Positions 26,001 to 62,953 of a stretch of DNA of 64,000 nt are shown here, one piece after another. Positions within the stretch are counted from its first letter, which is position 1. Each line of letters opens with the position of its first letter. Below the pieces are notes generated by a model. It was not told where the DNA came from and searched no databases. It saw only the letters and a list, made by a program, of their open reading frames with translations. This DNA comes from Nocardia tengchongensis (lineage in GTDB: Bacteria; Actinomycetota; Actinomycetes; Mycobacteriales; Mycobacteriaceae), in contig NZ_CP074371.1 in the NCBI RefSeq assembly GCF_018362975.1, positions 3,596,001-3,660,000 on the forward strand, in the 5' to 3' direction. The translations under genes and the position numbers were made by a program.

Positions 26001-30955
<4,955 letters not shown>

Positions 30956-30966
30956 CAAAGAAGCTA

Positions 30967-31000
30967 CGCGTCCACTGTGCAGTATCTGAAACAACACACA
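30967..31000 (+). other. 23S processing stem, 3' arm
   Basis: Complement of 27805-27837, directly after the 23S gene: CGCGTCCACTGTGCAGT and AAACAACACACA match the two blocks of the 5' arm. Confidence 0.85.
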
Positions 31001-31073
31001 GATACAGGCAGACAGGAACCGAACCCTCGCAAGGGGATTCGCGACCTGGCTCTCTGTGTGACAGTTTCATAGA

Positions 31074-31192
31074 GTTACGGCGGCTATAGCGGTGGGGAAA
31101 CGCCCGGTCCCATTCCGAACCCGGAAGCTAAGGCCACCTGCGCCGATGGTACTGCACTCGACAGGGTGTGGGAGAGTAGGACACCGCCGGAA
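31074..31192 (+). rRNA. rrf: 5S ribosomal RNA
   Basis: About 119 bases, starting GTTACGGCGGCTATAGCGGT and ending ACACCGCCGGAAC. The arms of helix I pair, and CCCATTCCGAACCCGGAAGC is the conserved loop B-C region. Confidence 0.95.
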
Positions 31193-41672: not shown

Positions 41673-41867
41673 GTGCACTCCTGACGGTGGGCAGGCCACG
41701 CGAGGCGCCCGCGATGAGGGAATCAAGGGTTTGGTTCGTGAAGCAGCGCATGCCAAGTGCCGATCGGCGAAGGATGCGCGAGTGTTGCCTGCTGGGTGTT
41801 TCGGGCGATTCGCGTTGTGGAGCGAGGCTGCCGTCCTGAGCGAAGGACGCTGCAGTCGGCGGCCGAT

Positions 41868-42618: not shown

Positions 42619-44610
42619 ATGGGAGATCAACCCCTGGTTACGGCGGCCGATATCGCGCGGTATGCCGATGTCACTCGGGCCACAGTCAGCAACTGGAGGC
42701 GTCGGCACTCCGACTTTCCGGCAATTGCCGGTGGCACGGAAGCCCGTCCGTTGTTCGACTTCGACGAGGTGAGAGCTTGGGTTGCCGCGCGTGGCATCGA
42801 TGCGACGCGTTCCCCGCTGTCCGAGTTCCGCACCTTGGTGCAGGCGCGCGTGCGTCCTGAGGACGTGCTGCCACTACTGGCCTCTGTCCATGTCGAGCAT
42901 GGTGAATTGGCCGGTGGTACAGCAGCTCCGCAGCTCTCGGCGGAGCTGCTGTCCGCCATACAGGCGGTGACGGCCGATGCCGGCGCGCGCACAGTGCTCG
43001 AAGCGCTGGCGGAGCGCGCGTTGCAAGGCTCGCTGGAGGCCGGTGCTCACTGGACGCCCGAACCGCTCGCGCGTTTGATGGCACAGCTCCTCCCAGAGCC
43101 ATCGGGAAGCTATCCTCACAGCGTCCTCGATCCTGCTTGCGGCCGCGGTGGCCTGCTGATCGAGGCGGCCCGGCAGGGTGCGGTCGAGCTGTACGGGCAG
43201 GATGTGTTGCCGGTACAGACGGAACTGGCGCGACTGCTGGTGGCCTTGGAGGCCGGTGTCGAACCGCGAATCATGACCGGCGACAGCCTGCTCGCGGACG
43301 CTTTCGCCGATCTGCACGTGGACGCGGTGCTGTGCAATCCGCCATTTGGCCAACGTGATTGGGGCGCCGACCAACTGCGATTCGACTCCCGATGGGAATA
43401 CGGCGAACCGGTCCGTATCGACTCGGAGCTGGCCTGGGTGCAGCACGGACTCTCCCACTTGCGGCCGGGAGGCACCGCCGTGTTCGTGCTGCCTCCCGGG
43501 GTGGCTTTCCGAACCTCGGGCCGTCGTATCCGGGCGGCCCTGCTGCGAGGGGGAGCATTGCAGGCCGTCATAGCGCTGCCGGGCGCGGTGCTTCCATGGA
43601 CATCGATCCCATTGCAATTGTGGGTGCTGCGCCGTCCCGACACCGACCGGATACCAGCGGGGAAGGTGCTTTTCATTGAGGCATCGGCCGAGCGGGAACC
43701 CTTCGATGCGTTCGCTGATCGAGCGGTCTCGGCCTGGCGGGCCTTCGATGCGGATCCGGACGCGTTCGCCGCGATTCCGGACATTGCCGCGGCGGTACCG
43801 GTGATCACCTTGCTCGATGACGCTGTCGATCTCACCCCGGGCCGATACACCCGCGCACCACTGGATCCCGCGGCACTGCTCGCACAGATCGCGGAGACGG
43901 AAGCGACACTGTCGGAGCAGGTCGACAGGCTGCACGCCGATTTCGGCGCGACCAGTGATTGGTCTGCCGCACAACAGAAGTCATTGCGTACGGTCACCAT
44001 CTCCGATCTGGCGCAGCGCGGCGCGGTGCGGATCCTGCGCACGACACCGGTTGGCGCGAATCAGGTCATACCCGACCGGGTCGACACCACGCAGCCGATG
44101 TTGACCGGCCGCGATCTCGTTACGGGGGTGCGTGCCTCCGAGGTCGTCGGCGACCTGGCCTTAACGTCGAATGTCGTGGTGATCGAGGCTGGCGATGTGC
44201 TGTTGCCGGTGGTTCGCGGCACCCGTTCGGATGTTCTCCCCACACGGGTAGCCGATCAGGCCGACGCCGGTGTCGTCGCGGGATCGGGCGTGATCGTACT
44301 GCGCCCGGACCCGCTGCAGCTCGATCCATGGTTCCTGGCGGGCTTCGCCGCCAACGCCGACACGGGCGCGACCTCCGGGATTTCCGGTGCGACTCGTACC
44401 GAAACGAACCGGCTTCGAATACCGATGCTGCCGTTGTCCGAACAAGGGGGGTACGGCTCGGCCTTCCGGCGCATGAGCGAATTACATGCGGTCGCCCGGC
44501 AAGCCGCCGAATCCACCGGCAAGTACGTGGGTCTCGTTGTGTCTGGTCTGACGGCCGGTGCGTTGAACCCACCCGATGAAATCGAGGGGAGGAGCCGGTG
44601 GAGCGACTGA
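42619..44610 (+). CDS. N-6 adenine DNA methylase with N-terminal HTH and C-terminal specificity-like region
   Basis: A 663-residue single-chain modification protein. Residues 7-32 form a helix-turn-helix (VTAADIARYADVTRATVSNW). The HsdM-like core has the SAM motif VLDPACGRGGLL near 170 and the catalytic NPPFGQRDW near 240, so it should methylate adenine in DNA. The last ~200 residues (VTISDLAQRGAVRILRTTPV, then RIPMLPLSEQGGYGSAFRRM) resemble one target-recognition half of a type I S subunit. No separate hsdS or hsdR is present. It overlaps the kinase gene by 13 bases. It may protect self DNA for the downstream system or, through the HTH, control the operon. Confidence 0.85.
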   Translation: MGDQPLVTAADIARYADVTRATVSNWRRRHSDFPAIAGGTEARPLFDFDEVRAWVAARGIDATRSPLSEFRTLVQARVRPEDVLPLLASVHVEHGELAGGTAAPQLSAELLSAIQAVTADAGARTVLEALAERALQGSLEAGAHWTPEPLARLMAQLLPEPSGSYPHSVLDPACGRGGLLIEAARQGAVELYGQDVLPVQTELARLLVALEAGVEPRIMTGDSLLADAFADLHVDAVLCNPPFGQRDWGADQLRFDSRWEYGEPVRIDSELAWVQHGLSHLRPGGTAVFVLPPGVAFRTSGRRIRAALLRGGALQAVIALPGAVLPWTSIPLQLWVLRRPDTDRIPAGKVLFIEASAEREPFDAFADRAVSAWRAFDADPDAFAAIPDIAAAVPVITLLDDAVDLTPGRYTRAPLDPAALLAQIAETEATLSEQVDRLHADFGATSDWSAAQQKSLRTVTISDLAQRGAVRILRTTPVGANQVIPDRVDTTQPMLTGRDLVTGVRASEVVGDLALTSNVVVIEAGDVLLPVVRGTRSDVLPTRVADQADAGVVAGSGVIVLRPDPLQLDPWFLAGFAANADTGATSGISGATRTETNRLRIPMLPLSEQGGYGSAFRRMSELHAVARQAAESTGKYVGLVVSGLTAGALNPPDEIEGRSRWSD

Positions 44611-45608
44611 AGGACGCCGATCCCAAACGGATCGGCGCGGTCGCGATTCGTGGTCGGCTCGGTAACGGCGGTATGGGCCGTGTCTATTTCGGCGTCACCG
44701 ACGACGGAGATGCGGTGGCCGTCAAGGTGATTCGTGAGGATCTGCTGGGTCGTGACGAGGTGCGCGGACGATTCGCGCGCGAACTGGACGCCTTGCGGTC
44801 CGTACAGAGCCCTCATGTGGCGTCCTTGCTGGCGGCGTCCGACGAGGACGAGGAAAAGCCCTGGCTGGCCATCGAGTACATTCGCGGCCTCAATCTCAAG
44901 GAGCTGATCGAAGAGCGCGGCCCGCTTGGCGCGGAGCAGACCGCGATCCTCGGCCTGTTGCTGACGAAGGCGCTCGCCGACATTCACGCCGCCGAACTGC
45001 TGCATCGGGATCTCAAGCCGGGCAACATCCTGATGGGCCGCGAAGGTCCGAAAGTCATCGACCTCGGATTGGCCGCGTTCCTGGACGGCCCCACCGACCT
45101 CACCAGCAGTCAATTCCCGCTCGGCACCCCAGCCTGTATGTCGCCCGAGCAGATCACCACGCCGCGAAGCCTCACCGCCGCGGTCGACGTCTACGCGCTC
45201 GGCGCGACCCTGATGTTCGTGCTCACCGGGCGGTTCCCGTTTCATGACCGGGTGGCAATCGCGCTGATGCACAAGATCACCGATCCCACTACGCCGCCAG
45301 ATCTGAGCGGCGTGCCGGAGCCATTCGAGCCGTTCCTGCGCCGGATGCTCGCCTTCGATCCGGCCGCCCGTCCGGCCGTCACCGAATTGCACGACTGGTT
45401 CACGCAATTGATCGGCGGCCAAGTGCCGCCGGCGATCCGAAACCTGGCCGTCGCCACCTACGTCGAGCGCGACTCCGACCCGCTGGAACCCACTCCGCCG
45501 CAGCGACCGCAACGCAAGGATCTGTCGAGCTTCGCACCGCCCGGTTCGGTGATTCACAAGCTCGCCGAGCGACTGCGCACCAATTACGCATCCACTGCCC
45601 GTTTCTGA
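44598..45608 (+). CDS. Serine/threonine protein kinase, soluble
   Basis: A 336-residue Hanks-type kinase. It has the glycine loop GNGGMGRVYFG at about 22-32, ATP-binding K43 in AVAVKVI, the catalytic loop HRDLKPGN at 136-143, and DLG at 155-157 in place of DFG (VIDLGLAAF). The activation region GTPACMSPEQI and DVYALGATLMFVLTGRFPF follow. The C-terminal ~70 residues after the kinase fold are Pro-rich and charged, without a membrane segment, unlike PknB-type receptors. The GTG start lies within the methylase gene behind GGGAGGAG. Kinases are part of Pgl/BREX-2 systems (PglW), so a signalling or triggering role in defence is plausible. Confidence 0.9.
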   Translation: MERLKDADPKRIGAVAIRGRLGNGGMGRVYFGVTDDGDAVAVKVIREDLLGRDEVRGRFARELDALRSVQSPHVASLLAASDEDEEKPWLAIEYIRGLNLKELIEERGPLGAEQTAILGLLLTKALADIHAAELLHRDLKPGNILMGREGPKVIDLGLAAFLDGPTDLTSSQFPLGTPACMSPEQITTPRSLTAAVDVYALGATLMFVLTGRFPFHDRVAIALMHKITDPTTPPDLSGVPEPFEPFLRRMLAFDPAARPAVTELHDWFTQLIGGQVPPAIRNLAVATYVERDSDPLEPTPPQRPQRKDLSSFAPPGSVIHKLAERLRTNYASTARF

Positions 45609-45625
45609 ACAGCTCGAGGAGCACA

Positions 45626-48403
45626 GTGATCGAAACCGCCTACCCGCCCGGTGCCCGGATCGAAGTTCGTGACGCCGAGTGGATCGTCCGCACCTGCGCG
45701 AAGTTCCGGCACGCAGACGGTGACAGCTACCGCGTCACCGCTGTCGGCGCGTCGGAGTTCGTCCGCGACGAGGAAGCGGTGTTCTTCACCGAACTGGACC
45801 AGATCAGCCTGTTGCGGCCCGAGGACACCATCCTCGAGCAAGACGACACTCCGCGTTTCGCGAAGAGCCGGCTGTTCCTGGAAGCCGTGCTGCGCCGTAC
45901 GCCACTGCCGCAGACCGAGAAGGGGCTGGCGCTGGCCGACCGGTTCCTGCTGGATCCGCTTGCCTATCAACAGCGCCCGGCCGTGAAGGCTCTCGAAGCC
46001 CTGCGCCCGCGCATCCTGCTCGCGGATGTGGTCGGCCTGGGCAAGACGCTGGAGATCGGCCTGATCCTGGCGGAGTTGATCCGGCGCGGACGTGGCGAAC
46101 GCATCCTGGTGGTCACCCCGCAGCAGGTGCTCGAACAGTTCCAGCGTGAGTTGTGGACCCGGTTCGCCATCCCGCTGGTGCGCCTGGATTCGGTTGGCAT
46201 CGAACGCATTCAGCGCGACATCCCGGCCGGACGCAACCCGTTCCTGTACTACAAGCGCGTCATCGTCTCGATCGACACACTCAAGAACGAGGGCAAGTAC
46301 GGTCAGCATCTCGAGAAGATGAACTGGGACGCGGTTGTCATCGACGAATCGCACAATCTGATCGGCGAGACCAGCCTGCGCAACAAACTGGCCCGGCTGC
46401 TGGCGCGACAGACGGACGCACTGCTGCTGGCCAGCGCCACCCCGCACAACGGCAATAGCGAGTCCTTCGCCGAGCTGATCCGCATGCTCGATCCGGCGGC
46501 CATCGCCGACAGCTCCACGTATCAGGCGAAAGACATCGAGCACCTGTACATCCGGCGCACCAAGACCGATTCGGAGGTGCGCAACCAGATCGGGACCAAG
46601 TGGCCGGACCGGGGTCCGTCGGTGCCGGTGCGCTGCACGGCGACACCAGCGGAGGAGAAGATCTTCGCCGAGCTGACCAGCGTGTGGCTGGCCGGCGAGC
46701 AGCGACTCGGCGGGCCGGTGGTCGGCACCGCGAACCGGCTGTTCCCCTACACCCTGCTCAAATCCTTCCTGTCCTCGCACCAGGCCCTGGCCAAAACGGT
46801 GGCCAACCGGTTGCGATCCGCCGAGGAACAGTGGGAGATTGACGCGCTGAAAGTATTGCAGCAGTTGACCTCTCGCATGACCGATGGCGATTCGGCCAAG
46901 CTGGCCGCACTGGTCGAGCGGCTGCGGGACATCGGCATCGGCCCCAGGAGCCGCACCCGTGTGGTGGTCTTCTCCGAGAGCATCGAAACCGTCAACTGGC
47001 TGCACACCGTGTTGCCGCGCCAACTGGGCCTGCCCGCCGGTGCGGTGGACAAGCTGCTCGGCAACGGCATGTCCGACCAGACGCAGACGGACATCATCGA
47101 GGGATTCGGCTTGTCCGACAGTGCGGTTCGGGTGCTCGTCACCACCGATGTCACCTCCGAGGGTGTGAACCTGCATCATCAGTGCAACCACTTGATCCAC
47201 TATGACGTGCCGTGGAGCCTGATCCGGATTCAGCAGCGCAACGGCCGCATCGATCGTTACGGGCAGACGCGCCAGCCGCAGTTCGACGCCCTCATTCTCA
47301 CCTCGGACGTGGAGGGCGCCAAGGACGACCGGACGGTCGCGGAGAAGCTCCTCGCGAAGGAGGAAGCGGCGCACCGCAGTCTCGGGACGGTGGAGACGGT
47401 GACCGGCGAGTACCGCCCCGAACGCGAGGAGCGTCGCCTGGAACAGGACCTGTTGGCGGGCAAGACCGTTGAGGACTCTCTGGACGTGCGGCCGCTCGAT
47501 GACGTGCTCGCTGATCTGCTCGGCTCGGTCGGCGTCGAGCAGGTCGACGCCGACCCGGCGCGCGCCGACGCGCCGCATCTCTTCGACAGCACGGAGGCCT
47601 TCGTCAAGGAGTCCATCGACGCGCTGAGGCTGCTCGACGACCTCGAGGACGACGGGGAGATGCTGGCGTTCACACCGCCGACGGATCTGGTTCGTCGCCT
47701 GTCCGCGCTGCCCGCCGACTACCTGCGCATGCACCGGGTGCGCGACCGCATGAAGGTCACCTTCGACCGAAAACTGGCGCAGCGCAAGCTCACCGAGGCC
47801 CGCGACACCAAGATGATGTGGCCGGCCATCGCCTACCTGTCGGACCTGCATCCGCTGGTCGACTGGGTCACCGACAAGGTCCTGGTCCAGCTCGGCCGGC
47901 AGCAGGCTCCGGTGATCGAGGCCGCCGTCGACGAACCGGTGTTCCTCATCCAGGGCATCTACTCCAACTCGCTGGGACAGCCCACCGTGGTGGAGTGGAT
48001 GGCCGTCGACGGCGAGGGCGTCGTGCCGCGGCCGATGCCGGAGGTCCTCGGCGAGGCCAAGGTCGGGCCGGGCATGACCAACACTCTGCGCGCCATCGAC
48101 CTCGCCCCGCTGCAGGCCCGCGTCGGCGACGTCGTGGCCATCGCGCGCGCCCACCTGGAAGCCCGCCGCGGCGAGTACGACGCCAAGGTCGTAGCGCCGC
48201 TGAACGATTACCGCGACAAGCTCCAGACCTGGGAGCAGCTCACCCTCGACGGCTTGCCCGTGTCGGGCAAGGACGACAAGGGAAAGGTCGTCGCCGACAC
48301 CGTCGAGCGCCAGCGGCAGTTGCTCGACGATATGAAGACTTCCGGCGTGCCCCTGCTGCGGGTGCTGGCCGTACTCGTTCCGGAACAGGAGGCAGCCCGG
48401 TGA
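45626..48403 (+). CDS. SNF2-family helicase (DrmD-like)
   Basis: A 925-residue superfamily-2 translocase of the SNF2/RapA type. Walker A is DVVGLGKTLEIGL (K140). Walker B is VVIDESHNL (DESH, 240-243). Motif III is LLASATPHNG. The C-terminal lobe has TTDVTSEGVNLHHQCNHLIH and the motif VI arginines in QQRNGRIDRYGQ. A ~200-residue tail continues past the helicase core. The order SNF2 helicase followed by a giant PglX-like methylase and a COG1205-type helicase with DUF1998 matches the logic of class 1 DISARM, where the first is DrmD. GTG start with GAGGA upstream; the stop overlaps the methylase start (GTGA). Confidence 0.9.
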   Translation: MIETAYPPGARIEVRDAEWIVRTCAKFRHADGDSYRVTAVGASEFVRDEEAVFFTELDQISLLRPEDTILEQDDTPRFAKSRLFLEAVLRRTPLPQTEKGLALADRFLLDPLAYQQRPAVKALEALRPRILLADVVGLGKTLEIGLILAELIRRGRGERILVVTPQQVLEQFQRELWTRFAIPLVRLDSVGIERIQRDIPAGRNPFLYYKRVIVSIDTLKNEGKYGQHLEKMNWDAVVIDESHNLIGETSLRNKLARLLARQTDALLLASATPHNGNSESFAELIRMLDPAAIADSSTYQAKDIEHLYIRRTKTDSEVRNQIGTKWPDRGPSVPVRCTATPAEEKIFAELTSVWLAGEQRLGGPVVGTANRLFPYTLLKSFLSSHQALAKTVANRLRSAEEQWEIDALKVLQQLTSRMTDGDSAKLAALVERLRDIGIGPRSRTRVVVFSESIETVNWLHTVLPRQLGLPAGAVDKLLGNGMSDQTQTDIIEGFGLSDSAVRVLVTTDVTSEGVNLHHQCNHLIHYDVPWSLIRIQQRNGRIDRYGQTRQPQFDALILTSDVEGAKDDRTVAEKLLAKEEAAHRSLGTVETVTGEYRPEREERRLEQDLLAGKTVEDSLDVRPLDDVLADLLGSVGVEQVDADPARADAPHLFDSTEAFVKESIDALRLLDDLEDDGEMLAFTPPTDLVRRLSALPADYLRMHRVRDRMKVTFDRKLAQRKLTEARDTKMMWPAIAYLSDLHPLVDWVTDKVLVQLGRQQAPVIEAAVDEPVFLIQGIYSNSLGQPTVVEWMAVDGEGVVPRPMPEVLGEAKVGPGMTNTLRAIDLAPLQARVGDVVAIARAHLEARRGEYDAKVVAPLNDYRDKLQTWEQLTLDGLPVSGKDDKGKVVADTVERQRQLLDDMKTSGVPLLRVLAVLVPEQEAAR

Positions 48404-51400
48404 GGCTCGACTCGATCACCAATCGCGGCGACTACTTCTCGGCGCACTATCTGGCCGAGGTGCTGCCGAAGGACCTGAAGAAGAAGGACGGTCTGCTGGC
48501 CGCCTGGACCGAGCGCGAGAAGCAGCATCGGCAGGAGCGAACGGCCGGAACGGATTCCGATGCCGAGACCCCGGAGAAGTCGGCCCGGGTGACCCCGCGG
48601 CAGGGACTGCGCGCCCTCCGTAAATCGTATTTCGCCGACCGCCCCTTCTTCGCCGACCTCGACGCCCGCCGCCGCGACGGCGAACCGCTCACCGGGCGCG
48701 AGTTGGTCGAGCAGCGCAAGAAGCTGCATGAGCTGCACGGTGAGATGCTGCGCGCCTTCGGTTTCGACGCCCAGCAACGGGAGCTGCCCGTCCTGACGGC
48801 GCGCGGTGAGGACCCCGTCGCCGTCGCTTATGCAGACGATCAGCTGATCGCCATCGAATGCGGTTGGGCCGTGGATGTGGACGCCGCTCTCGACGACGAT
48901 CAAGCCGGACGGCTCCTCGCTCCCGTGGCAGTCGGCCTTCGTGAGGAGATCACGTCCGGCGCGAAGCTGGCGAAGTGGCTGTTCGCGAATAAGCAGCAGC
49001 TGCGCTACGTGCTCATCCTCGCCGGTGGTGTGGTGATCCTCGCCGACCGCGCCACCTGGGGCGAGGGCCGCTACCTCGGCGTCAGCCTCGATATCGCCCT
49101 GGGCCGCAACGACATCGACGAACTGTCGGTCATAGCCGCCTTGTTCGGCGCGGACTCGCTGCTGCCGCCCGCCGAAGGCGGCTCCGAACCCCTGGCCGAG
49201 TTGTTGAAGAACTCGCGCAACCACGCGGTCGGCGTCTCCAAGGAACTGCGCGACGGTCTCAAGGAATCGGTTGAGCTCATCGCCAACGAGGTCCTCGACC
49301 GCATCCGCGAGCAGGGCGCCCGCCCCGAGGACATCATGGAACCCGCCGCTCTCGCCAAGGAGCTGGGCCGGGAATCACTGCGCTACCTGTACCGAATCCT
49401 GTTCCTGCTCTACGCCGAAGCGCGACCTGAACTGGGTATCCTGCCCACCGACGACCAGGACTACAGCCGCGGCTACAGCCTGGCCCGGCTTGGTGATCTG
49501 GTGGTGCGCGACCTCAGCGGGGAGGAATCACGCCTGCACCTGTACGAGTCGCTGAACCTACTCTTCAAGTTGGTTAACAAGGGACATCGGCCGCGCACGG
49601 TTGAGGAGCTCGCCGCGAAACGGGCCGCCGAAGAGGAGCTGGCCAAGACGGGGAAGTTATCCGCCGACAACACGTTTCTCGAAGACGAGGGCCTGCGCTT
49701 CGAACCCATGCGCTCGGACCTGTTCGAGCCCGCGGCGATCGGTCTCATCCGCTCCGATCTCGTCATCGACGACGAGGAAGGTCGCACCATCGACACCCGG
49801 CTGCGCAACGCCTGCCTCTACCAGGTGCTGCGCAAGCTCATGCTGGCCAAGGGACGGCGCAGGGAGCGCGGCGGGTTCATCTCCTATGCCCAGCTGGGCA
49901 TCAACCAGCTCGGCGCGGTGTATGAGGGGCTGATGTCCTACACCGGGTTTATCGCCACTGAGGACCTGTACGAGGTCGCCAAGAACGGCGATCCCAAGGA
50001 CGGATCCTGGATGATCCCGAAGTCCAAGGAGAGCGAGTATCCGGATGACGTATTCGTCCGGCGGGTGGATGATGACGGCACGAAATCCGATGAGAAAGTG
50101 CGGTATCTGACGGGCTCTTTCGTCTACCGCCTCGCCGGTCGCGATCGCGAGACCAGCGCCTCTTACTACACCCCGAATCGCTGACCAGCGTCACCGTTCA
50201 GCTCGCGCTGAAATACCGCCTCGATCAGGACGATACGACCACGACGGCGCAGGAGATCCTGGGCTGGAAGATCTGTGAGCCCGCCCTCGGCTCCGGCGCG
50301 TTCCTCAACGAAGCCATCAACCAGGTAGCGGCGGAATACCTGAAGCGGCGTCAACGTGAACTTGGGGTCGACATCGACCCGGAACGCTACGAGGAGGAGT
50401 TGCAGAAGGCAAAAGCCTATATTGCTCTGCACAACTCGTACGGCGTCGACCTCAATGAGACGGCAGTTGAACTAGCGGAGGTCTCCCTCTGGCTCAACGT
50501 CATGCATCCGGGGCTGCAAGCGCCCTGGTTCGGTCTGCACCTTCGGCGGGGCAACTCGCTGATCGGGGCGGGCCGCAAAATTTACAGCGCGCCGCAGGTG
50601 CTTTCGGGGACGTGGCTCAGGGAATCGCCCGACGATCTGCCGTTCTCGGCAGGGGCGCTGCCGCCGGGCATGATTCACCATTTCCTTGTCCCCGCCGACG
50701 GCTGGGGTGCGGTTTCCGGACCGAAGGAAGCCAAGGCCCTCGCACCAGAGCAGGCCAAACAGTTGGCAAGCTGGCGGAGGGGTATCGCGAAGCGGATCTC
50801 CGACAAGAAGACGAACGGCCGCAAGACATCCCAGCTCCAACGGCTCCAGGCACTCTCCGGCCGGGTCGAATACCTGTGGGACCTGGTCACGCAGCGGCTC
50901 ACCATCTCCGAGCGTGAGATCAGTCGCAAGATCGACGTGTGGGGCGCTGATTGGCTGCACCAGCCCGAGCACGCAGTGCCCAAGGAGAAGGTGTACCAGG
51001 ACCTCACCGCACCCGGCACGCCGTACTGGCGGCTCAAGAAGGTGATGGACGCCTGGTGTGCGCTGTGGTTCTGGTCGTTGGACGAGGTCGGTCTGCTGAA
51101 CGGCAGCGACCCGAGATATGCTCGCGAGCAGGCCACCAATTCCCTTGTGGATTCCTTCGTTTCGGCGCTGCCGGCCGACGAGCCGATCTCCGACCAGGAA
51201 CCGACCGGCTTCGAACAGGTCTACATCACCGATTCCCTGTTCAGCATCGACAACGAACAACTCGATCTGGCCCAATACACCCAATCTCAAGTTGTCGGTG
51301 CCCGCAAGCCCAAGACAGCTCGCCGACCGAAGCTCGACCCCGTGCGCGACATCATTCCGTTGCAGAACCTCGACGACTGGCTCGACTTCGCCGAATCGGT

Positions 51401-53543
51401 ACTCGGTCGAGTGGACGTTCCCAAAGACTCCCTCGTTACCAGCTTCACACAGCTGGAGGACTTGGAAAAGTATGAGGACCAGTTGCCGGTATGGATGGGC
51501 ATGGACTCGGAATTCAAGCTGGGAGAGAGGTTTCCGTGGTTCGGGGCAACAGAGGGCATCGCTGAGGGGCAGGGGTTTTTCCACTGGGACTTGCAGTTCG
51601 CGCAGATTTTCCTCGATGGTGGTTTCGACCTGCAGATAGGAAATCCGCCCTGGGTCCGTCCTGACTGGCAAGAAGATGCAATTCTTGCGGAGGAGGACCC
51701 GTGGTTCAAGTTATCGGGTAAAGCGGATGCATCGGAATGGCGTATGCGAAAGTCGGAGGTGCTGGACTCGACCGATTCTCGAACAGCCTATTTCGGCGAG
51801 CTGGCAAACAATAGCGGCGTTGTAGAATTTCTCGGAAGCCAGGCGCTGTATCCTCTTTTATACGGTACTAGGCCGGATTTTTATCGCGCATTCATGAGCA
51901 GGGTATGGATGAATTCTGCATCGGCGGGGGTTGCTGGCCTTATACATCCGGATACTCACTTTGGTGGCGTCAAGGAAGGAGCCCTTCGCGCGGCAGCGTA
52001 TCGAAGGCTTCGGCTTCACGGAAACTTCGTTAATGCCGCAAACTGGGCATTTGAAATCGGTCGTACGCGGGAGTTTGGCGTCCACATCTATGGATCTGAA
52101 CAAGATATTGGGTTCGATCACCTGAGCCAGCTTTACGATGCTAGATCCTTTCCGGAATCATTCGTGCACGATGGGCGCGGTGATGCGCCCGGCCAAAAGT
52201 ACCGCGGTGATTGGGATCGCAGGCCTCATCGAGATAGAATTATTCATGTGGATATCGATCTACTCGGACGATGGAATGCTATAAGCGGCGATCCGAAATC
52301 TCCTGCCGACGAGGCGCCATTGCTGTTCCCGGTATCGGTGCATGAACAGGATGCTATCGCAGCGCTAGGTGCGTATCGGCATAGGCTTCGTGGTGAGAAT
52401 CCCTGGATTACATCCGGGTACAACGAGAAGACATCCAAGGATGACGGTCGTATCCGTGGTGAACTGGGGCGTCCGGGGGCTCTCAGTGATGTAATCGTCC
52501 AGCCGACGCATTTCGGTATCGCGACACCGTTTGCAAAGGAGCCTAATGATCCTTTTCGTAACGACAAGGATTGGGTTGCCTGGGATCTGACTGGGTTGCC
52601 AGAGTCGGTTATTCCTCGTACGACATATGTTCGTGCTTGTAGCATCAGCGAGTTTGAGCGAGTGCAGGACCGCTGGAATATGGGAAGCGGCGATGTCTGC
52701 AGGTATACTCGGTTCTATCGTCTTCTATGGCGTAGAAGGATTGATCCGAAGAGTACTGAGCGATCTCTTTTTGCTGCATTATTTCCACCTGGTCCTGCGC
52801 ATGTCCACACGGTGAATTCGCTAGCATTGGCGGATAGCAGGGGTACCGCATTGGCCGCGGGGTTCTGGGCAGCTTTGCCGCTGGACTATCTATTGCGGAT
52901 AACCGGTCGCGCTGATCTTCAGAAGGCGGAAGCCTTGGGGATGCCTGCGGCGGATCCTAATCATCCTCTAGCCTCAGCGCTACTGCTCCGTACTCTGCGT
53001 TTGAATTGTTTGACGGGTGATTACGCAGCCCTATGGCGGGAGCTTTATGATCCAGCTTGGAGTAATGAAGCCTGGGCTGTGAAGTGGAGTGAGATTCAAC
53101 CGATTAGAAACGTATTGCCGGAATGGAGATTGGACACGCCGCTGCGGTCTGAATATGAACGCCGTGCTGCACTGGTGGAGATCGATACAATTGTCGCCTT
53201 GTGGCTCGGTATGACTGCTGATCACCTGGTTGCGATATTTCGTGGACGGTACCCAATTCTTGGCGATAGAGAATCCGCCATGTGGTTCGATGCTGCCGGC
53301 AGGCGTATTGCTGCAGATCCCTATGCTTTTGGATATTCTCAAACGAAGGATCACTTTGAGAAGCTTCAAGAACATCTAGACGCTGAAATTGACGCACCGG
53401 CACCAGAAGGTTATGAGGCCCCGTTCTACAAGGCCGACCGCGAAGCCGAATACCGCCAAGCGCATGCAGTTTTCGCCCAGCGGCTGGCCGATGCAGGCTG
53501 GCCTGTGCCAGGTGAATCCCCGCATGAGGACGGTGCCGAATGA
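48400..53543 (+). CDS. Giant PglX/DrmMI-like adenine DNA methyltransferase (one frameshift)
   Basis: 1714 residues after restoring one G at about 50175. The N-terminal ~600 residues are a helical BREX/DISARM-type methylase extension (ESLRYLYRILFLLYAEARPE, ACLYQVLRKLMLAKGRRRER). The catalytic domain has SAM motif I ICEPALGSGAFLNEAINQV near 620, the DLNETAVELAEVSLWLNVMH region near 690, and NPPW (IGNPPWVRPDW) near 1080, typical of gamma-type N6-adenine methylases. The target-recognition part after NPPW (nt ~51640-53390) is clearly poorer in G+C than the rest. The frame break falls in SYYTPESLTS, a conserved methylase segment, so a base-calling error is likely. Its start overlaps the SNF2 stop, and its stop overlaps the helicase start. 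Confidence 0.87.
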
Positions 53544-56500
53544 AGCCCACCCTTGCGGCGGAGGAGCTGCGCAAAAGCCTCACGCAGTACCTTACGACAA
53601 CCTTCGCCCTTGCCGAGCCGACTGTCCGTGAGGCCCTCGAACGCTTCCTCGAGGACCCTCAGCAAGGCATCTTCCGTGGCCCGTACCTGCGAATCCGCAC
53701 CAAGTTTCGCAAGGTGGACGAGAAGAAGTGGCGAAACCCTTTGCAGTGGACGCCCGCTGGTTTCGTCCCTCACCTGCACCAGGCGCGGGCGTGGCAGCGC
53801 CTGAGCACCCTGGGTAAGAACGCCGAGCCGTCGTTGATCACCACGGGAACCGGTTCTGGTAAGACCGAGTCGTTCCTGATCCCGGTCCTGGACCACTGCC
53901 GGCGGGAGCGCGCGGCCGGGCACCACGGGGTCAAAGCCGTATTCCTCTATCCCATGAACGCCCTGGCCACAGACCAGGCGCAGCGCATCAACGAATTGCT
54001 CACCCAAACCGGTATGGAGCAGGTCACGGCTGCTCTCTATATCGGTGACACCCCCGAGGTGGGCTATCAGAAGGTGATGACGGTGCGGTCGGAGATCCGC
54101 CGCAATCCTCCGGACATCCTCATCACCAACTACAAGATGCTCGATCTGCTGTTGCAGCGGGCCGATGATCTCCCGCTGTGGGAGGACGCCCGCATCGCCT
54201 ACATCGTGGTGGACGAGTTCCACACCTACGACGGCGCGCAGGCCACTGACGTGGCAATGCTGTTGCGCCGCTTGGCCGCCGTTACCGGGCATTCGCGGCC
54301 CGGGGAGCCGCTCGGTGATATCTGCCCGGTGGCAACCTCCGCCACTCTGGGTGAGGGCGGCGACAGTTCGGAGATCCGGAGGGTGGCCGAGAAGGTGTTC
54401 GGGGTGCCGTTCCCGGAGGCGTCCGCCATCGGCGAGAGCCGGCTCACCGTGGACGAATTCATGGATGAGCTGGATATCAGCCTGCCGCTGCCGAGTCCGG
54501 ACGAGCTGTTGAATTGTCCTGACCCGCTGCGGGTTCCGACGGCTATGGAGGATATCGCCGGAGCCGTCACCGGGTACACCAACCTCAATCCGGCTGAGCT
54601 GGGCCAGTACCTGCGCAAGCACATCCTCACCCATGCGGTGCTGGAGATCCTCAACGGCAATCAGGACCGGGGTCGGCCGCGCACCATGGAGGAGATTCTC
54701 GAGTCCCTGCCCAAGCGCGGTGCCTACACCTGGGGTGCGGCCATTCGCGACAACCCGCGCAAGGCGGCCGCGGCGCTGGCGCGGTTCATCGCGCTGCTGT
54801 CGGAGGCACGTGACCCGGAGAATCCGAAACAGCCCTGCTGCTCATCGAAACGCACGTCTGGGCGCGTGCGGTGTCGCGCTTGTTGCGGATGGTGAGCACG
54901 ACGGCGGCGTTCGGCTGGGAGGGCGAGCCTCCGGTCATGGACGATGACTCGCTGGTGGATCCACGCGGCAAGCGAATGTTGCCCGCGATCTACTGCCGTC
55001 ATTGTGGTCGCTCCGGGTGGGCGGCGTATTCGCCGGAACGCGATCCGGCTGAGCTGAATGTGAACCCGGACAAGATCTATCGGGCGAACGTGGGCACAGA
55101 GAACAAGCGGGTGCGCGCGTTCATCAAGGCCACCGACAAGGAGGTTGAGGCGAAGCTGCGCAGTTTGCTTGTGCTGGAGAACGATCGGGTGCGCCCGTTC
55201 GATCCGCAGGAGACCCTCAGCGATGAGACGGTGCACGTCCTGGGTGATGTATCCACCACCCCGGAGGCAAACAACCGGGCCGCGAACGACCGGTGCCCGG
55301 CCTGCGATACCGATGAAGGCATCCGATTCCTCGGTGCCGGTCTGGCGAGCTTGGCGTCGGTGGCCATCACTCAGCTGTTCGCCCGTGATCAGCTCGAGCC
55401 GAACCAGCGAAAGACCCTGCTGTTCAACGATTCCGTGCAGGACGCCGCGCATCGGGCTGGGTTCGTCGCCAACCGCTCCTACGCCTTCTCGCTGCGACGA
55501 CTGATCACCGACCGGTTGGGGGACACGCCGATCCTGTTGCACGACTTGATCGCCGAACTGGCCGCCGCGGCGACTGAGGGCGAGGTGCTGCCCGCAGTGG
55601 TGCCTCCCGATCTGCATGATATGCCCGAAATCGACGAGATTCTGGCGGAGACGACGACCGGCAGCCCGCGGGCGTGGAATCTCATCGGGGAACGGTTGGC
55701 GTTCCAAACCATCCTGGAGTTCGGGTTGCGGTCCCGGCAGGGACGCACTCTAGAACTGACCGGCACCGCCGCCGCCGAGGTTGTGCTCGAGAACCCTTTG
55801 CTGGCAGCGGATCTCGCGCGGGACGCGCATATGAAGGTGCAGTCCGGGCACATCGAGCCGCAGACCGAGGAACGCTATCTCGTCTTCGTGCGCGGACTGC
55901 TCGAGCGTATGCGCTACCGTGGTGCGATCAAGCACCAGTGGCTGGACGGCTGGATCGCGAATGCGGGTACCAAGCGGTTCGGCACCATCTGGGGCCGCCG
56001 CCCGGACGGTATGCCCGCGTTCCCGCGCGGACTGTCCGCGCCGACCTTCGTGCGTGACCGCGCCAAGAAGGGCTCCGAATTCGACGGTATCGAATCCGAT
56101 CAGGGCTGGATGCAGGATTGGGCGTCACGCTGTCTGGGCCTGGCGCGCGGGCAGGCGGGGGAATATCTGTCGAAGTTCCTGCCCATACTCGCCGCCGAGC
56201 ATGTGATCGCCAAACGCGTTGCCGGAGACGGGTCTACGCAGATCTATGGTTTGCAGCCGGGCCATATTCAGGTCCGCTTCCTGGAACATGACGAGGTGGC
56301 CGACGCGGGCATCGGCTGCGACCGCTGCTCCTGGCAGCAGACGGTGCACCCGGAGCGGATCGACGATTGGTTCGATCAGCCCTGCCCGCGATACCGTTGC
56401 GGTGGAACGCTTTCCGTGCGCGGACTGCTGGACCACAACGACTATTACCGGCACCTGTACCTGGGCAAGCCGTTCCGGGTGGTCACCGCCGAACACACCG

Positions 56501-59500
56501 GTTCGCTGACCCGTGCCCAGCGCGAGCAGGTGGAACAGCAGTTCAAGGAAGGAAAGCGTTACAACGACCCGAACGTCCTGTCCTGCACTCCCACATTGGA
56601 ACTCGGCATCGACATCGGTGACCTGTCCGCGGTTGTGCTCGCCTCGCTGCCGCCCGGGCCCGCCAACTACATTCAGCGCGTCGGTCGCGCCGGGCGCAAG
56701 ACCGGTAATGCCTTCCTGGTGACGCTTGTCGGCCGCACACCGCGGGACCTGTACTTCATTGATCAGCCGCTGTCGATGATCGACGGTGAGATCATCCCAC
56801 CCGGCAGCTACCTGTCAGCGGTGGAGATCCTGCACCGCCAGTATGTGGCGCACTTGGTCGACCTCGCCGCCCGAGATCGGTTACCGGGCGTGCTGCCGCT
56901 GCCGCGCCGCGCCTCGGCGTTGTTCGGCGAAACCGGTTGGCTGGCAGGCTTCGTACCCGCCGCGCTCGCCTCGCGTTCCGTCAAGCCGTTCCTCGACCTG
57001 TTCGGCGACACCGTCTCGCAGAGCGCGGCCGACGACCTGCGCGCCTTCGCAGTCTCTGGTCTCGCAGAGGCGGTGCGGGAGGCTGAACAAAGCTGGGGCG
57101 AGCGGCTGGCCGATCTGCGGGAACGGTTGTCACTCATCGACGCCGCGCTGAAAACCTCGCAGGACGACGCGGACAACCAGATCGTGAAGCGCTCGATGAA
57201 AGCTGAACGGCACGCGATCAACAAGCGCATCAACGAGATCGGTAGCCAGAGCGCGCAGGGAGCGATGGTGGAACTCGGCCTGCTGCCCAACTATTCGCTC
57301 ATCGACACCGCGACTGCGCTGGAAGCCACCATCACCTGGGACGAGGAAACCCGAAGGGGGACCGCGACTATCACAGCGAGGTCCGCGAATACCGCCGCCC
57401 GTCCAGCACCGCGCTCACCGAACTCGCCCCGGCAACACCTTCTACATGCGCGGCTACCAGCACGAGATCACTGGGCTGGACGTCGGCACCCCGAACCGGC
57501 AGGCGTGGGAACACTGGCGGGTGTGCCCCGACTGTGGGTACGTCCGCACCTCACGGGCGGTGGAGGACATCTCACCGTGCCCGCGCTGTAAGGCCCGCGA
57601 GATCGGCGACGCCGACGCTCTGCACAAGGTGTTGCGCCCCACCCGAGTATCGGCGCACGACCGCCGCGACGACGCCCGCATCCGCGACGACCAGGACGAC
57701 CGCAAACGCCGGTACTACGAAACCGTCACGGCCGTAGACATCGACCCCGCCGATATCGCCGAAGGCTCCTGGCGGCACACCAAAGCTGTGTTCGGCGTGG
57801 ACTTCACCCGGCGTGCGGCGGTCCGTCGTTTCAACCTCGGCACCACCCGTTACGACCGCCCGGCCGGCGACCGGTTCGCCGGAGAAGACTTGCGGCTGAA
57901 TCCGTTCCACACTTGCCCCGCCTGTGGCGGCACCACCGTGGACGGCCCGCCTGTCGGGTCGTCGAACGGCCTTGTCGCGCCGTCGATCTGGGAGAAGTCG
58001 CGGCAACACCACCGACCATGGTGCCCGTATCGCCGCTCGGCGCAGGACGCCGACTACCTGCGGCTGATCCTGGCCCACGAACTGGAAACCGAGGCGCTGC
58101 GCATCCTGCTGCCGGTTGCCACCCTGCGAGCCGAGGAAAGATCAGCGAGTTTCCACACCGCGCTGATGGCGGGCGTGGCCCGCAATTACGGCGGCGACCC
58201 GGCGCATCTGCAGATCGCGACCAGCCACCATGCCCGACCAGGACACCGGACGTCGCCGGCGTTTCCTGGTCCTGCACGACACCTTGCCGGGCGGTACCGG
58301 ATATCTGCACCGGCTGGCCAGTTCGGACAATTTCCGTGACGTGCTGACCGCAGCCCGCGGTGTCGTGGCCAATTGCCCATGTCAGGAAGAACTCCCGCCT
58401 CGGGCCGCCTGCCACCGCTGCCTGCTCTCCCACATCCCCAACGACAAATCCGAGTGGTACGACAAGGTCAGCCGTCTCGACGCGTTGGAGATGCTGAACG
58501 AACTGCTCGAGGACTGGGCCGTCGGGGAAGTGAGCGACACGACCAGATCTCATTGTGGGGATCAGGTGGAAAGCGAACTGGAGGCCCGATTCCTCGACGG
58601 GCTCACCAAATGGGCGAACCGCACCGACACCGAAGGCACGCTGGCCCGCGGCGAGTTGGTCGCGGGCAAACGGACCGCCGATCTGCGAATCGAAGGCCCG
58701 GCGGGCAGGTGCAGCATTGGAAGATGCTGTTGCAGAACACCATTCGCGGCACTCGTCCCGACGTGGTGTTCCGGCTGGTCAGCGATCAGCCGCAGGAGAT
58801 CTCGGTCTACCTGGACGGCTACGAGTTCCACGCTTCGCCCGCTCACAACCGGCTGGCCGACGACGCGCGCAAGCGGGCCCGGCTGCGAGCACACCGCGGG
58901 CTGGTCTTCCAGGTCACCTGGAACGACATCGATGATTGGGAGCTACGAGGTTTCGGCCCGAACACCTCGAAGGAGCCGCTGGTCGCGCCGTATCAGGGCA
59001 ATGCGCAGAATTCTGCGCGCACCCTCTATCAACGCTCCGGCCGCGACGCCGACGAGTTGGTCAAGACCATGTGGACCAACCCGGTGGACACCCTGCTCGC
59101 CTACATGACCGATCCTGACCAGAAATTGTGGTTGGCTCGCGCCGAGGCGGTGGTGGCCGGAGCGACCCAGACGGCGAAGACACCGCCGAGTGCCTCGGAC
59201 GTCACCGGTGTCGCCAAGCGGGTCACGGCGGCGCTGCAGGGTGATCAACTGCCCGCGGCGGAGAACGGCCGGATCGCGACCATCGCCGCCGCGGCACCCG
59301 GCCCGTTGGCGATCATCCTGGACCAGCGCAACGGCGCGACATGGAGTGCATTCACGGTCGTCGACGATCGCTCCGAGACCATCGAAGCCGATCCGGACGG
59401 GCACAAGAAACGCTGGGCCAACTGGCTGTATTGGGGAAATCTCCTGCAGTTCCTCGACTTCGGCGCGGGCGACAGCGCCCAACTGGCCCTCTCCGCCTTG

Positions 59501-59965
59501 GACGAGTTCGATGCGAGCCAGCTCGCGGCGGCGGGGGGCAGCGGCTTCCTCACCATGCTGAGCCTGCTGCCACTCGACGCCGACCTCACCGACGACACCC
59601 TGCCCCCACCGCCCCGCCGCGGACTTGAACCCGAACCGCGTCCCGTGCCCAGTGATCACGCCATGTCACCGGATTGGGCGGAGGCCCTCGACCTGCTCGA
59701 CCCGGACGAACTCGGTCTCGCCGAGCTGGCGCACGAGCTGGCTGTGCTCGCAGTGCCCGCCCCCGAGGTCGGCTATGAACTGGGAGAACACGCGTGGCAA
59801 GCTGAATTGGCTTGGCCCGCAGCGAAAGCGGCGGTGGTGCTGGCCGGAGACGACGATGAGGCGCGCAAGCGCGACGCTGCCTACGCGGAGGACGGCTGGC
59901 AGGCTCGACCCGCGTCGGGCTGGACGGCGACCGAACTCGCCGAACGGATCGGAGGAGAACAATGA
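53540..59965 (+). CDS. 2142-residue DEAD/DEAH helicase with DUF1998 and nuclease-like C terminus (DrmA-DrmB or DruE-like; five indels)
   Basis: One continuous protein once bases are restored at 54833-54835, 57356-57360, 57431-57432 and 58703-58705 and one removed at 58228-58229. The helicase (COG1205 type) has [12 protein letters not shown] near 99, [15 protein letters not shown] near 224, [13 protein letters not shown], and a C-lobe with [20 protein letters not shown] and [11 protein letters not shown] near 1050. Zn-type pairs CRHCGRSGW and CPACDTDEG interrupt it. Near 1590-1630 is DUF1998 ([22 protein letters not shown]...CHRC). After it lies a Vsr/DUF559-like region ([44 protein letters not shown]). 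DISARM encodes the first two parts as DrmA and DrmB; Druantia DruE is also a single giant. ATGA overlaps at both ends. Confidence 0.85.
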
Positions 59966-62087
59966 GCGGCGCGACCTTGCGAATGCTGGACAAGGCCTAC
60001 GAGGAGGTGCTGAAGCTGCCGCGGGCCGTCAAGGGCGCGATCTACGATTTTCAGCACAAGTTCCGGGAGAACCCGGATTCGCCTGGCCTGCAACTCAAAC
60101 AGCTCAAAGGCAATTCGCGGCTGTACTCGGCGCGTGTGAACCTGGACTATCGGGCGCTCATGTTGCACGCGGGCGACCAGGACTACGTGATAGTCGCGAT
60201 CAAACCGCGCCAGGAGGTGTACGACAACCTCGACCGATACGCCTACCAGATCAACCCGGTGAGCGGTGGCATCGAATTCGTGGACCTGGTGACCGCGGAA
60301 GCCGCCGTGCCCGAGGAACCCATCGGGCCCGCACCGCTTTTCGCGCAGTACTCCGATAGGACGTTGCTGGATCTCGGCGTGGCCGAACCGCTGCTGGCGC
60401 TGATCGCGAAGATCACCACCGAGGACGAGTTGCACGCGCTCATGTCCTTCGCCCCGCAGCTCACCTCGGAAGTGCTGCTGGAGTTGTTCGTCGGCAAGAC
60501 CCCTCAGGAGGTGATGGAGCAGATCACCGCGCCGGTGGCGGCCGCTGAAGCGGTCGACGCGGAGGACTACCAGGCCGCGCTGGAGCGTCCCGCCACCGTC
60601 ACCACCGAAGATGGTGCGCTGCAAGCGATTCTGGAGGAAGGCGACTTCGGGCGTTGGAAGGTGTTCCTGCATCCCACCCAGCGCAAGATCGTCGAACGCG
60701 ACTACAGCGGTCCCGCTCGGGTCAGCGGCGGACCGGGCACCGGTAAGACCATCGTCGCGCTGCATCGCGTCAACAAGCTGGTGGAGCAGGTGGGCCCGGA
60801 ACCGGCAAAGATGTCCTTCTCACGACCTTCAACACCAACCTCGCCGCCGATCTACGACAGCGTCTACTCGATCTGTCCGGGCCCGAGGTGCTGGATCGAG
60901 TCGACATCTTCAATATCGACAAGCTTGCGGTGAGGGTTGCCACCGAGGGCAACGGCAGCGCCGGGCGGCGGTGGATCAACGACGCCAAGGCTGTCGAGCA
61001 ATGGGAGCAGCTTCTCGCGGAACAGGATGAGCGGCAATGGGATCCGCAATTCCTGCACGACGAGTGGACCCAGGTCATCCTCGGGCAGGGTTTGACCACG
61101 CGCGCGGAGTACTTCAAGGCGCGTCGGGCGGGCCGCGGTCAGCGCATCGGCAGAGAAGCACGGGCCGCGATCTGGCGGCTGGTCGAACGGTACGTGAAGC
61201 GGCTGGACGAACAGAACATGTGGACGCTTCGACAGGTCGCCGAGCGGGCCGCTCTGCTGGAGACCGAGCGTGCCGAGACCATCGCGCGAGCGAACAGCAC
61301 CGCGCCCCAACACGGTAACGAGCTGCGGCATCGCTACCGGCACATCGTGGTCGACGAGGCGCAGGACCTCAGCCCGACGCACTGGCGGATGCTGCGCGCC
61401 ATGGTCGACGAGGGACCGAACGACATGTTCATCGCCGGTGACACCCATCAGCGCATCTATGGCCAGTATGCGTCACTCGGTCAGCTCGGCATCAATATCC
61501 GGGGGCGCTCGGCCAAATTGACCCTGAGCTACCGCACCACCCACGAAATCCTCGGCATGGCGGCGGCGCTGCTCGGCGAGGAGGAATGGGATGATCTCGA
61601 CGACGGCAACGACGATCTGACCGGCTATCGCTCGGTGCTGCGTGGGCCGCGGCCCGTGTTCCGGGCCTATCCGACCTGGGAAGCCGAATTGGACGGGATC
61701 GCCGAGCGGATCGCGGCCTGGAACGACGAGTCCGTTGCGGTCGCGGTGCCGGAGCGGTGGATGGCCGAGGCCGTGGCGAAGCGCTTGAGCAAAGCCGAGA
61801 TCGACGCGAGCGTGATCGGGCCGGACGGTCCCGGCGAGAACGCCGCTCCGGTGCACGTCGGCACCATGTACCGATTCAAGGGTCTGGAATATCAGCGGAT
61901 GATCCTCGCGGGTGTCGCGGAGGGCGCGCTGCCGGGCAGCCGCGTCCTGGAACTGAAGCAGACCGACCCCGCGCGCTATGGCACGGAGATCAAACGTGCC
62001 AGGTCGTTGCTATTCGTGGCCGCGACCCGGGCTCGGGACAGCATCGTGATCAGCTGGCATGGAAAGAAGAGCAGGTTCTTGCCGTGA
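59962..62087 (+). CDS. UvrD-type helicase with N-terminal RelE/ParE-like domain (one frameshift)
   Basis: 708 residues after adding one G at 60804-60805. Residues 1-95 (LDKAYEEVLKLPRAVKGAIY, LQLKQLKGNSRLYSARVNLD, YRALMLHAGDQDYVIVAIKP, EVYDNLDRYAY) have the pattern of a RelE/ParE mRNA-interferase fold. A helical linker follows. The SF1A helicase then has Walker A SGGPGTGKTIVALHR near 255, DEAQD near 465 (IVVDEAQDLSPTHW), GDTHQRIYG, YRTTHEIL, GTMYRFKGLEYQ and LLFVAATRARDSIVISWHGK. The break sits between Walker A and motif Ia and restores GKDVLLTTFNTNLA. Its GTGA overlap with the kinase downstream shows translational coupling. Confidence 0.85.
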
Positions 62088-62953
62088 AGACTCTGGCCGA
62101 CCGGTACCAGGTCACTTCCGCCATCGGGCGCGGTGGCATGGGGGAGGTGTGGGGTGGAAAGGACCTGCGCCTCAACCGGCCCGTCGCAATCAAACTGGTA
62201 GCGGCGGAATTCGCGAGCGACACCGAAACACGCCGGAGGTTCAACCGGGAGGCCAGAATCACCGCGCGGCTGCACCACCCGGGCGTGCCAGCGGTGTACG
62301 ACTTCGGTAGTGACGGTGAGCTCTTCCTCGTCATGGAGCTGGTCCCCGGGGATTCCGTCAGCATGCTCGTCGGCGAGCTCGGCGAGCTGCCGGTGAACTG
62401 GGCTGCGTGCATCGCGGCCCAGGTGTGCGCGGTGCTGGCCGCCGCGCACGAGGCGGACCTGATCCATCGCGACGTCAAACCAGGGAACCTCGTCCTCAGT
62501 CGCAATGGACTCGTCAAACTCATCGATTTTGGTGCCGCCACCTCGCTGCGGGCCGACGAGTACTCCGTTATCACGATGTGGGGCGATATTCCCGCATCAC
62601 TCGGCTACATGGCGCCCGAATTACTGGAAGGAGGACCAGCCGGCCGTGCGAGCGACCTGTTCTCAGTCGGCTGCCTGCTCTACGAACTCCTCACTGGTTC
62701 ACGCCCTTTCAAGGCCAGTTCGAATCGGGCATCTCGGCCGCCACGGATGAGTGACGTGCCGAGGCAGCTGGAAGATGTCACGTTTGGGCTGCTGGATCTG
62801 GATCCTGCGCACCGGCTGGCCGACGCTAGCTCAGCGCACGGACTCCTGATGCCATGGGTCAAGGGGCGTGCTTCAATTCCGGGATGGGTCGACCGCGACA
62901 TTTGCGATGACCCTGTTCAGATGTATGTGGATGCCGCGTCGCAGCGAATGTGA
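62084..62953 (+). CDS. Serine/threonine protein kinase, soluble (second in operon)
   Basis: A 289-residue minimal Hanks kinase. The glycine loop is GRGGMGEVWGG, ATP-binding K37 lies in PVAIKLV, the catalytic loop is HRDVKPGNL at 128-136, and DFG is intact (LIDFGAATS, 148-150). The substrate-side region contains MWGDIPASLGYMAPELLEGG and DLFSVGCLLYELLTGSRPF. The kinase fold ends near residue 260 and only ~30 residues follow, with no membrane segment or sensor. It differs from the first kinase of the operon (intact DFG, little tail), so the two are not a recent duplicate. The GTG at 62084 overlaps the UvrD stop. Last clearly coupled gene of the operon. Confidence 0.9.
   Translation: MKTLADRYQVTSAIGRGGMGEVWGGKDLRLNRPVAIKLVAAEFASDTETRRRFNREARITARLHHPGVPAVYDFGSDGELFLVMELVPGDSVSMLVGELGELPVNWAACIAAQVCAVLAAAHEADLIHRDVKPGNLVLSRNGLVKLIDFGAATSLRADEYSVITMWGDIPASLGYMAPELLEGGPAGRASDLFSVGCLLYELLTGSRPFKASSNRASRPPRMSDVPRQLEDVTFGLLDLDPAHRLADASSAHGLLMPWVKGRASIPGWVDRDICDDPVQMYVDAASQRM

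Follow-up and report, generated by a model that had tools for sequence, protein, structure and literature searches.

Positions 42619-62953 (+) of the stretch of Nocardia tengchongensis DNA analysed here encode two methylases, three helicases and two Ser/Thr kinases in a single operon. Which defence system does this operon represent, and why does it contain kinases? The stretch, hereafter the window, is 64,000 nucleotides long and covers positions 3,596,001-3,660,000 of contig NZ_CP074371.1, the single contig of an 8.0-Mb genome. An initial annotation of the sequence had described seven genes on one strand. All seven are present at the positions it gave, and their junctions are also as described: in operon order, a 13-base overlap, a 17-base gap and four 4-base overlaps. 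The gene domains were borne out by Pfam, PADLOC, NCBIfam and PDB profile searches. By domain content and gene order, the four genes armA-armD are the core of ARMADA type II, which was already named in 2025 (Bell et al., PMC12458937, consulted in part). We consider it probable, though not certain, that the operon represents ARMADA type II equipped with kinases, the core being joined by a kinase of its own (kin1) and by a borrowed methylase-kinase module (genes A and kin2).

Assignment of the core genes

PMC12458937 defines ARMADA type II by a strict order of four genes, encoding a BrxHII/RapA helicase, a PglX-like methylase, a YprA-like helicase that ends in a Vsr nuclease, and a GajB-like helicase whose N-terminus resembles RelE. 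Antiphage activity is reported there for Escherichia coli NCTC 12900; all four genes are required, and protection is non-abortive. The window contains this gene set in this order. The armA gene (45626-48403, +, 925 aa, frame intact) encodes an SNF2/RapA (BrxHII-like) helicase with SNF2-rel_dom and Helicase_C domains, and armB (48400-53543, +, one frame break) encodes a PglX/DrmMI/type IIG-like DNA methyltransferase with an NPPW motif. The product of armC (53540-59965, +, about seven frame breaks) is a YprA-family helicase with DEAD, Helicase_C and MZB matches and a C-terminal Vsr-like nuclease; its MZB/DUF1998 zinc-binding domain lies at 58239-58424 (+; PF09369, above cut-off). In armD (59962-62087, +, one frame break), a RelE/YoeB-like N-terminal domain is fused to a UvrD/GajB-like helicase with a UvrD match.

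The pieces of armA-armD match an ARMADA II locus on an E. coli plasmid one-to-one and in the same order. That locus adjoins annotated Zorya II genes and an STY4851/DEAD-helicase pair, which we take to be Druantia III. The armA product matches E. coli ArmA at 34% over its length, and its scores against the two NCBIfam DrmD models, 299.7 bits (cut-off 610) and 114.7 bits (cut-off 950), are both below the cut-offs. Both frame pieces of armB match E. coli ArmB; its PADLOC matches are REase_MTase_IIG (1.1e-168) and, more weakly, DrmMI. DruE models are the best PADLOC matches for four of the five armC pieces, the fifth having no match, and DruE is also the best match of the intact relative from Nocardia sp. 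BMG51109 (G105). In the ArmC tree, the window piece, its intact relatives and E. coli ArmC form one group of 27 rows (support 100/99), apart from the one DruE3 included; this tree has several long branches, a single E. coli DruE3 as its Druantia reference and no ARMADA I reference. At the C-terminus, PD-(D/E)xK-like residues are aligned with those of E. coli ArmC, and the C-terminal piece has no Pfam match. Both frame pieces of armD match E. coli ArmD. Its N-terminus weakly matches RelE/YoeB-type chains (2khe, 7e-4; 7v5y, 0.002; 3bpq, 0.013), and an unrelated chain, 5h7b, scores 0.012.

PADLOC models of 2023 scatter the core over DrmD, type IIG, DruE and GajB; therefore, the set is easily taken for a relative of DISARM. 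The initial annotation had indeed regarded it as an undescribed one, a view superseded by the ARMADA type II assignment (PMC12458937, available text). A fusion of DrmA and DrmB, as it had also suggested, was rejected in view of the helicase's matches, which are to DruE models and to E. coli ArmC instead; a YprA/DruE-type helicase with its own DUF1998 region and a Vsr-like nuclease end is the better description.

The order armA-armB-armC-armD, in some cases with inserted genes, was found in 25 of a first set of 30 ARMADA loci from genomes and plasmids. Two further loci are split over two contigs, and one, on a cyanobacterial plasmid, has the order C-D-A-B. At two Nocardia loci (G021 and G038), the roughly 12-13 kb that follow armB contain neither armC nor armD. 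On a plasmid of Cylindrospermopsis curvispora (L088), the order armC-armD-armA-armB was observed for ARMADA-type genes, contrary to the strict type II order reported in the consulted part of PMC12458937. The armB-armC gap accepts insertions: NsnABC occupies it in G205, and NsnA/NsnB-type families occupy it in six other Streptomyces genomes.

A kinase upstream of armA

The kin1 gene (44598-45608, +, 336 aa, frame intact) encodes a PknB-like Ser/Thr kinase (Pfam Pkinase, 2.5e-39) with a conserved C-terminal tail. In 20 loci of the first set, a same-strand kinase of this one family starts about 1.0-1.4 kb upstream of armA. Three Nocardia loci carry a kinase of another family on the opposite strand, and by the same test the remaining seven have no kinase (G114, G131, Tsukamurella, E. 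coli, Haematobacter, Cylindrospermopsis and Nostoc), although two kinases are annotated about 7-12 kb upstream in the Nostoc record. A class-wide set was collected from 394 genomes with two candidates per genome scored; ArmA was found at E<=1e-90 in 42 genomes, giving 44 loci. The window and G131 belong to both sets. Among these 44 loci, kin1 is present in 25, two are cut by contig ends, and in 17 the upstream 7-10 kb contain no kinase on the same strand (one of these loci has a weak opposite-strand match).

The association is also apparent from the side of the kinase. When the 394 genomes were searched with kin1 (five candidates per genome scored), 20 of the best 21 matches, the window included, adjoined armA; for the remaining one, both the kinase gene and the armA of its genome lie at contig ends. 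The kin1 rows form one clade (23 rows, support 100/99) that is recovered in 100% of 200 bootstrap trees. HRD is present in 23/23 and DFG in 15/23, the kin1 of the window having DLG; a strict C-terminal tail pattern is found in 13 of the 19 called kin1 proteins, and the other six are similar. The ArmC proteins of kin1-bearing genomes likewise form a single clade (19 rows, 100/100), with the other 8 ArmC rows outside. Distances between ArmA proteins and between kin1 proteins correlate with r=0.915 over 20 loci, and 0/999 permutations gave a value as high. Judged from these comparisons, kin1 is an actinobacterial lineage-specific partner of the ARMADA II core, and most simply it was gained by ARMADA II once, in Actinomycetota.

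Several observations weigh against the kinase-equipped reading. The kinase tree compares kin1 with only nine background kinases. The ArmA-ArmC and ArmA-ArmD distances correlate too, and the co-variation of kin1 and ArmA may simply reflect the tracking of their hosts by both. Furthermore, ArmA relatives at 46-50% identity (G249, G562, G351, G320, G341 and G406) have no same-strand upstream kinase; thus, the core exists in a kinase-free form. A rule tying the presence of kin1 to an ArmA identity of 47% or more held for 20/20 loci of the first set and was dropped after these six class-wide loci at 46-50% were found to be without kin1.

The terminal methylase and kinase genes

Gene A (42619-44610, +, 663 aa, frame intact) encodes a helix-turn-helix (HTH) domain, an HsdM-like N6-adenine DNA methylase with an NPPF motif (Pfam N6_Mtase, 1.8e-41) and a single target-recognition domain (TRD). 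Its PADLOC match is MTase_I (2.7e-143), with weak matches to mad1 and mad2. In PDB profile searches, it matched type I M subunits (7vru_A, 3.8e-45), and residues 523-654 matched S subunits (5ybb_D and 3okg_A, about 1e-7). The AlphaFold2 model has a mean predicted local distance difference test score (pLDDT) of 85 and a predicted template modelling score (pTM) of 0.66. The best Foldseek match, 7eew_A, has an E value of 7.4e-24 over 647 columns with a TM-score of only 0.36. The PDB profile, the model and the Foldseek match together describe an M-TRD methylase with an N-terminal HTH. At the other end of the operon, kin2 (62084-62953, +, 289 aa; Pkinase, 1.3e-43) consists of a Ser/Thr kinase domain only. 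The two kinases and the second methylase that the initial annotation saw as additions to the core are thus present, and they are not part of the ARMADA II set.

The kin2 gene directly follows armD in the window, G105, G199, G201, G202 and G530, and also in G370 (44% identity). The first six are among the 10 closest ARMADA loci (ArmA at least 72%); kin2 was not found in the other four (G034, N. arizonensis; G080, N. abscessus; G200; G210). In G342, a kinase of the wider kin2 family follows armD in convergent orientation. Gene A lies 5' of kin1 in the window, G105, G342 and G370 and 3' of kin2 in G199 and G530. Nocardia sp. BMG51109 has the identical seven-gene set in the same order as the window. 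In the tree, kin2 forms one clade (100/99) that is nested among A-linked kinases, deeply apart from kin1, and is nearer to the kinases of bare A-kinase pairs than to most kinases of type I loci.

To place A itself, 40 A loci were inspected: the 20 best class-wide after the window and 20 others picked partly for a nearby kinase. Seven of the 20 best have A, hsdM, hsdS and hsdR with a downstream kinase, two are bare A-kinase pairs and one is an ARMADA locus (G342). The 20 others comprise five type I loci, 11 A-kinase pairs (in one, kinase and YprA helicase form a single fusion protein, and another lies beside a divergent ARMADA locus), one locus with an opposite-strand kinase and three without a kinase. 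Type I operons are therefore flanked in 7/20 loci drawn by score and in 12/40 overall; by match positions, the kinase is directly 3' of hsdR in six of the 12 and about 1.6-5 kb beyond in the other six. Pfam searches on example loci confirmed the HsdR, HsdM and HsdS proteins, a kinase-DEAD-MZB fusion and a PP2C neighbour. By these sequence comparisons, A and kin2 are a second module, related to methylase-kinase pairs that stand by themselves or flank type I restriction operons. Other loci do not fit this pairing: nine of the 20 best A loci have no kinase, and in one more the kinase is 12 kb off. Several kinase-less A genes occur in common gene orders and look solitary, and A is absent from most ARMADA loci.

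We also considered A, kin1 and kin2 as one inseparable set and rejected this, since kin1 and kin2 belong to different kinase clades and A is often absent or solitary. Of the co-occurrence of all seven families that the initial annotation had proposed as a test of one system, what stands is the pairing of kin1 with armA throughout a lineage; neither A nor kin2 is a constant member, and both are frequently found apart from ARMADA.

In Actinomadura pelletieri (L113:11743-19901), an A-type methylase gene is followed by a gene for a 2074-aa Ser/Thr kinase-YprA DEAD-MZB fusion and then by an SNF2 helicase gene; by its domains, this is an ARMADA-like operon with a kinase built in. A PP2C phosphatase gene adjoins bare A-kinase pairs at L112:7393-8226, in L119 and in L126 (on the opposite strand in L119 and L126). 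A phosphatase and a kinase beside A could possibly act as a write/erase pair.

Comparison with known defence systems

The operon shares with ARMADA type II the four proteins, their order and strand, the grouping of its ArmC with E. coli ArmC, the Vsr-like C-terminus and the RelE-UvrD fusion. However, the gene string in the window adds two kinases and an HTH-methylase-TRD protein. The word "kinase" appears 0 times in the main text of the ARMADA preprint, supplements aside (PMC12458937).

The initial annotation had taken the locus for a single antiphage-type operon that is neither canonical DISARM nor Druantia nor BREX type 2, and comparison with each system agrees. An SNF2 helicase, a PglX-like methylase and a YprA/DUF1998 helicase are common to the operon and DISARM class 1, but in the window the helicase and DUF1998 are in one DruE-type gene. 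Class 1 was ruled out because drmC is missing near the locus, separate drmA and drmB genes are lacking and the DrmD matches are below the NCBIfam cut-offs. The absence of drmC had been noted in the initial annotation and holds for PLDc_2 (PF13091): no such gene is near the locus, and in this genome the only one is at 7.17 Mb, other phospholipase D models being untried. Although the ArmC pieces match DruE models best, Druantia was ruled out, since the ArmC clade is apart from the one E. coli DruE3 and no other Druantia protein is among the PADLOC matches listed for the operon. BREX type 2/Pgl combines a PglX-like methylase and a Ser/Thr kinase (PglW) in one system (PMC12839542, available part), whereas the kinases of the window are single-domain proteins. 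It was ruled out because PglZ (PF08665) had no match anywhere in this genome. The HTH, methylase and kinase domains of the operon distantly match the mad1, mad2 and mad6 models of MADS, which we take to comprise eight genes, mad1-mad8. MADS was ruled out since the NCBIfam MAD2 score is 32 bits against a cut-off of 720 and only mad1/2/6-like matches are among those listed. Type I restriction-modification operons (L110, L116-118, L124 and L170-176) have similar flanks, with an A-family gene 5' and a kin2-family kinase gene 3', but enclose hsdM-hsdS-hsdR rather than ARMADA (by Pfam for L116 and L110, by similarity for the others).

Searches of open-licence PubMed Central papers for a kinase linked to ARMADA or to type I restriction, and for MADS, listed no description of these combinations. 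Supplements, subscription papers and most preprints were outside this search, and therefore the novelty of the kinase-bearing lineage is provisional. The four-gene core is known under its own name; the seven-gene set was not found in the searchable literature.

Possible role of phosphorylation

Based on these comparisons, the following mechanism can be proposed. ArmB and A would mark host DNA as self by methylating two different sets of sites. ArmA, ArmC (by its helicase and Vsr-like nuclease) and ArmD would attack unmarked phage DNA, a role assigned by likeness to the non-abortive four-gene system of E. coli (PMC12458937, consulted in part). kin1 may phosphorylate a core protein, most likely ArmA, which would be held off or switched on. 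kin2 would be a second input arriving with A, so that restriction would begin only after methylation has been established or a phage has been sensed. Control of restriction by phosphorylation appears to be the most economical function for the kinases. Older work on phosphorylation of the HsdR subunit of EcoKI, cited in a review (PMC12707154, available part), provides a precedent. These loci suggest that some bacteria place DNA-destroying defences under phosphorylation control.

A wider proposal is put forward only tentatively, as we regard it as somewhat doubtful. A portable module of an HTH-N6-methylase-TRD protein and a Ser/Thr kinase, sometimes with PP2C beside it, may join unrelated restriction systems in Actinomycetota (ARMADA II, hsdMSR and the ARMADA-like pair of L113) and give each a methylation-tied phosphorylation control; ARMADA II would also have gained a dedicated kinase in one lineage. 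How large DNA-degrading defence machines avoid self-harm and are switched on is poorly understood. The ARMADA II lineage with a dedicated kinase and the repeated occurrence of a methylase-kinase pair around type I operons make restriction under phosphorylation control directly testable.

The strongest alternative, to which we give a little less than an even chance, is that the system consists of armA-armD only, perhaps with kin1, and that A and kin2, as independent defence or regulatory genes, ended up at the operon ends. Both genes are optional, A can lie at either end (5' in the window, G105, G342 and G370; 3' in G199 and G530), and the armB-armC gap likewise takes other defence genes (NsnABC in G205). 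However, kin2 forms a single clade and in several genera overlaps armD or lies immediately next to it, A is found only where kin2 is present among the ten closest loci (4/4), and the window and G105 have all seven genes in common, in one order.

The kinases might instead be abortive-type backup effectors, similar to PD-T4-6 or Stk2, that shut the cell down when a phage blocks ARMADA, rather than regulators. Both kinases match PADLOC PD-T4-6 kinases, and the kinase and nuclease domains of PglW are considered possible suicidal backup modules in the consulted part of PMC12839542. This explanation seems unlikely, as PD-T4-6 matches are common to Ser/Thr kinases generally and kin1 is tightly linked to and co-varies with ArmA, unlike swappable effectors.

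Frame breaks in the operon

By GC phase and alignment with two relatives, single-base insertions or deletions were located in armB (one), armC (about seven) and armD (one), while A, kin1 and armA read through. With a hidden Markov model (HMM) of the coding frame, 21 frameshift-like events were counted over 344,481 coding bases (20 sampled stretches) of the same genome, six of them in one stretch (L077 of G000), against 0 events over 122,763 coding bases from five relatives. The model caught only four or five of the nine breaks in the operon, and its counts are therefore too low. As such events are spread across this assembly, its gene breaks call for caution. The density of breaks in armC is above the sampled genome average. 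The frame breaks of the operon are probably assembly errors, and our functional statements lean on intact relatives rather than on the broken frames; armC is an intact single gene in relatives (e.g., 2141 aa in G105). That the operon is decaying and non-functional in this strain is improbable: the roughly nine breaks in armB, armC and armD exceed the sampled average of the genome, but all are single-base, the open segments overlap across each break with no further in-frame stop seen, similar events occur across the assembly and in none of the five relatives, and intact copies of the operon genes exist in relatives.

Neighbouring genes

A search of the window for a tRNA gene that could serve as an integration site found none. 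An rRNA operon (26002-31192) lies upstream of the defence operon. Between them, on the opposite strand, are genes for a DndB-like protein (37078-38340, -; PF14072, 9.4e-26) and an RNase_T exonuclease (41076-41756, -).

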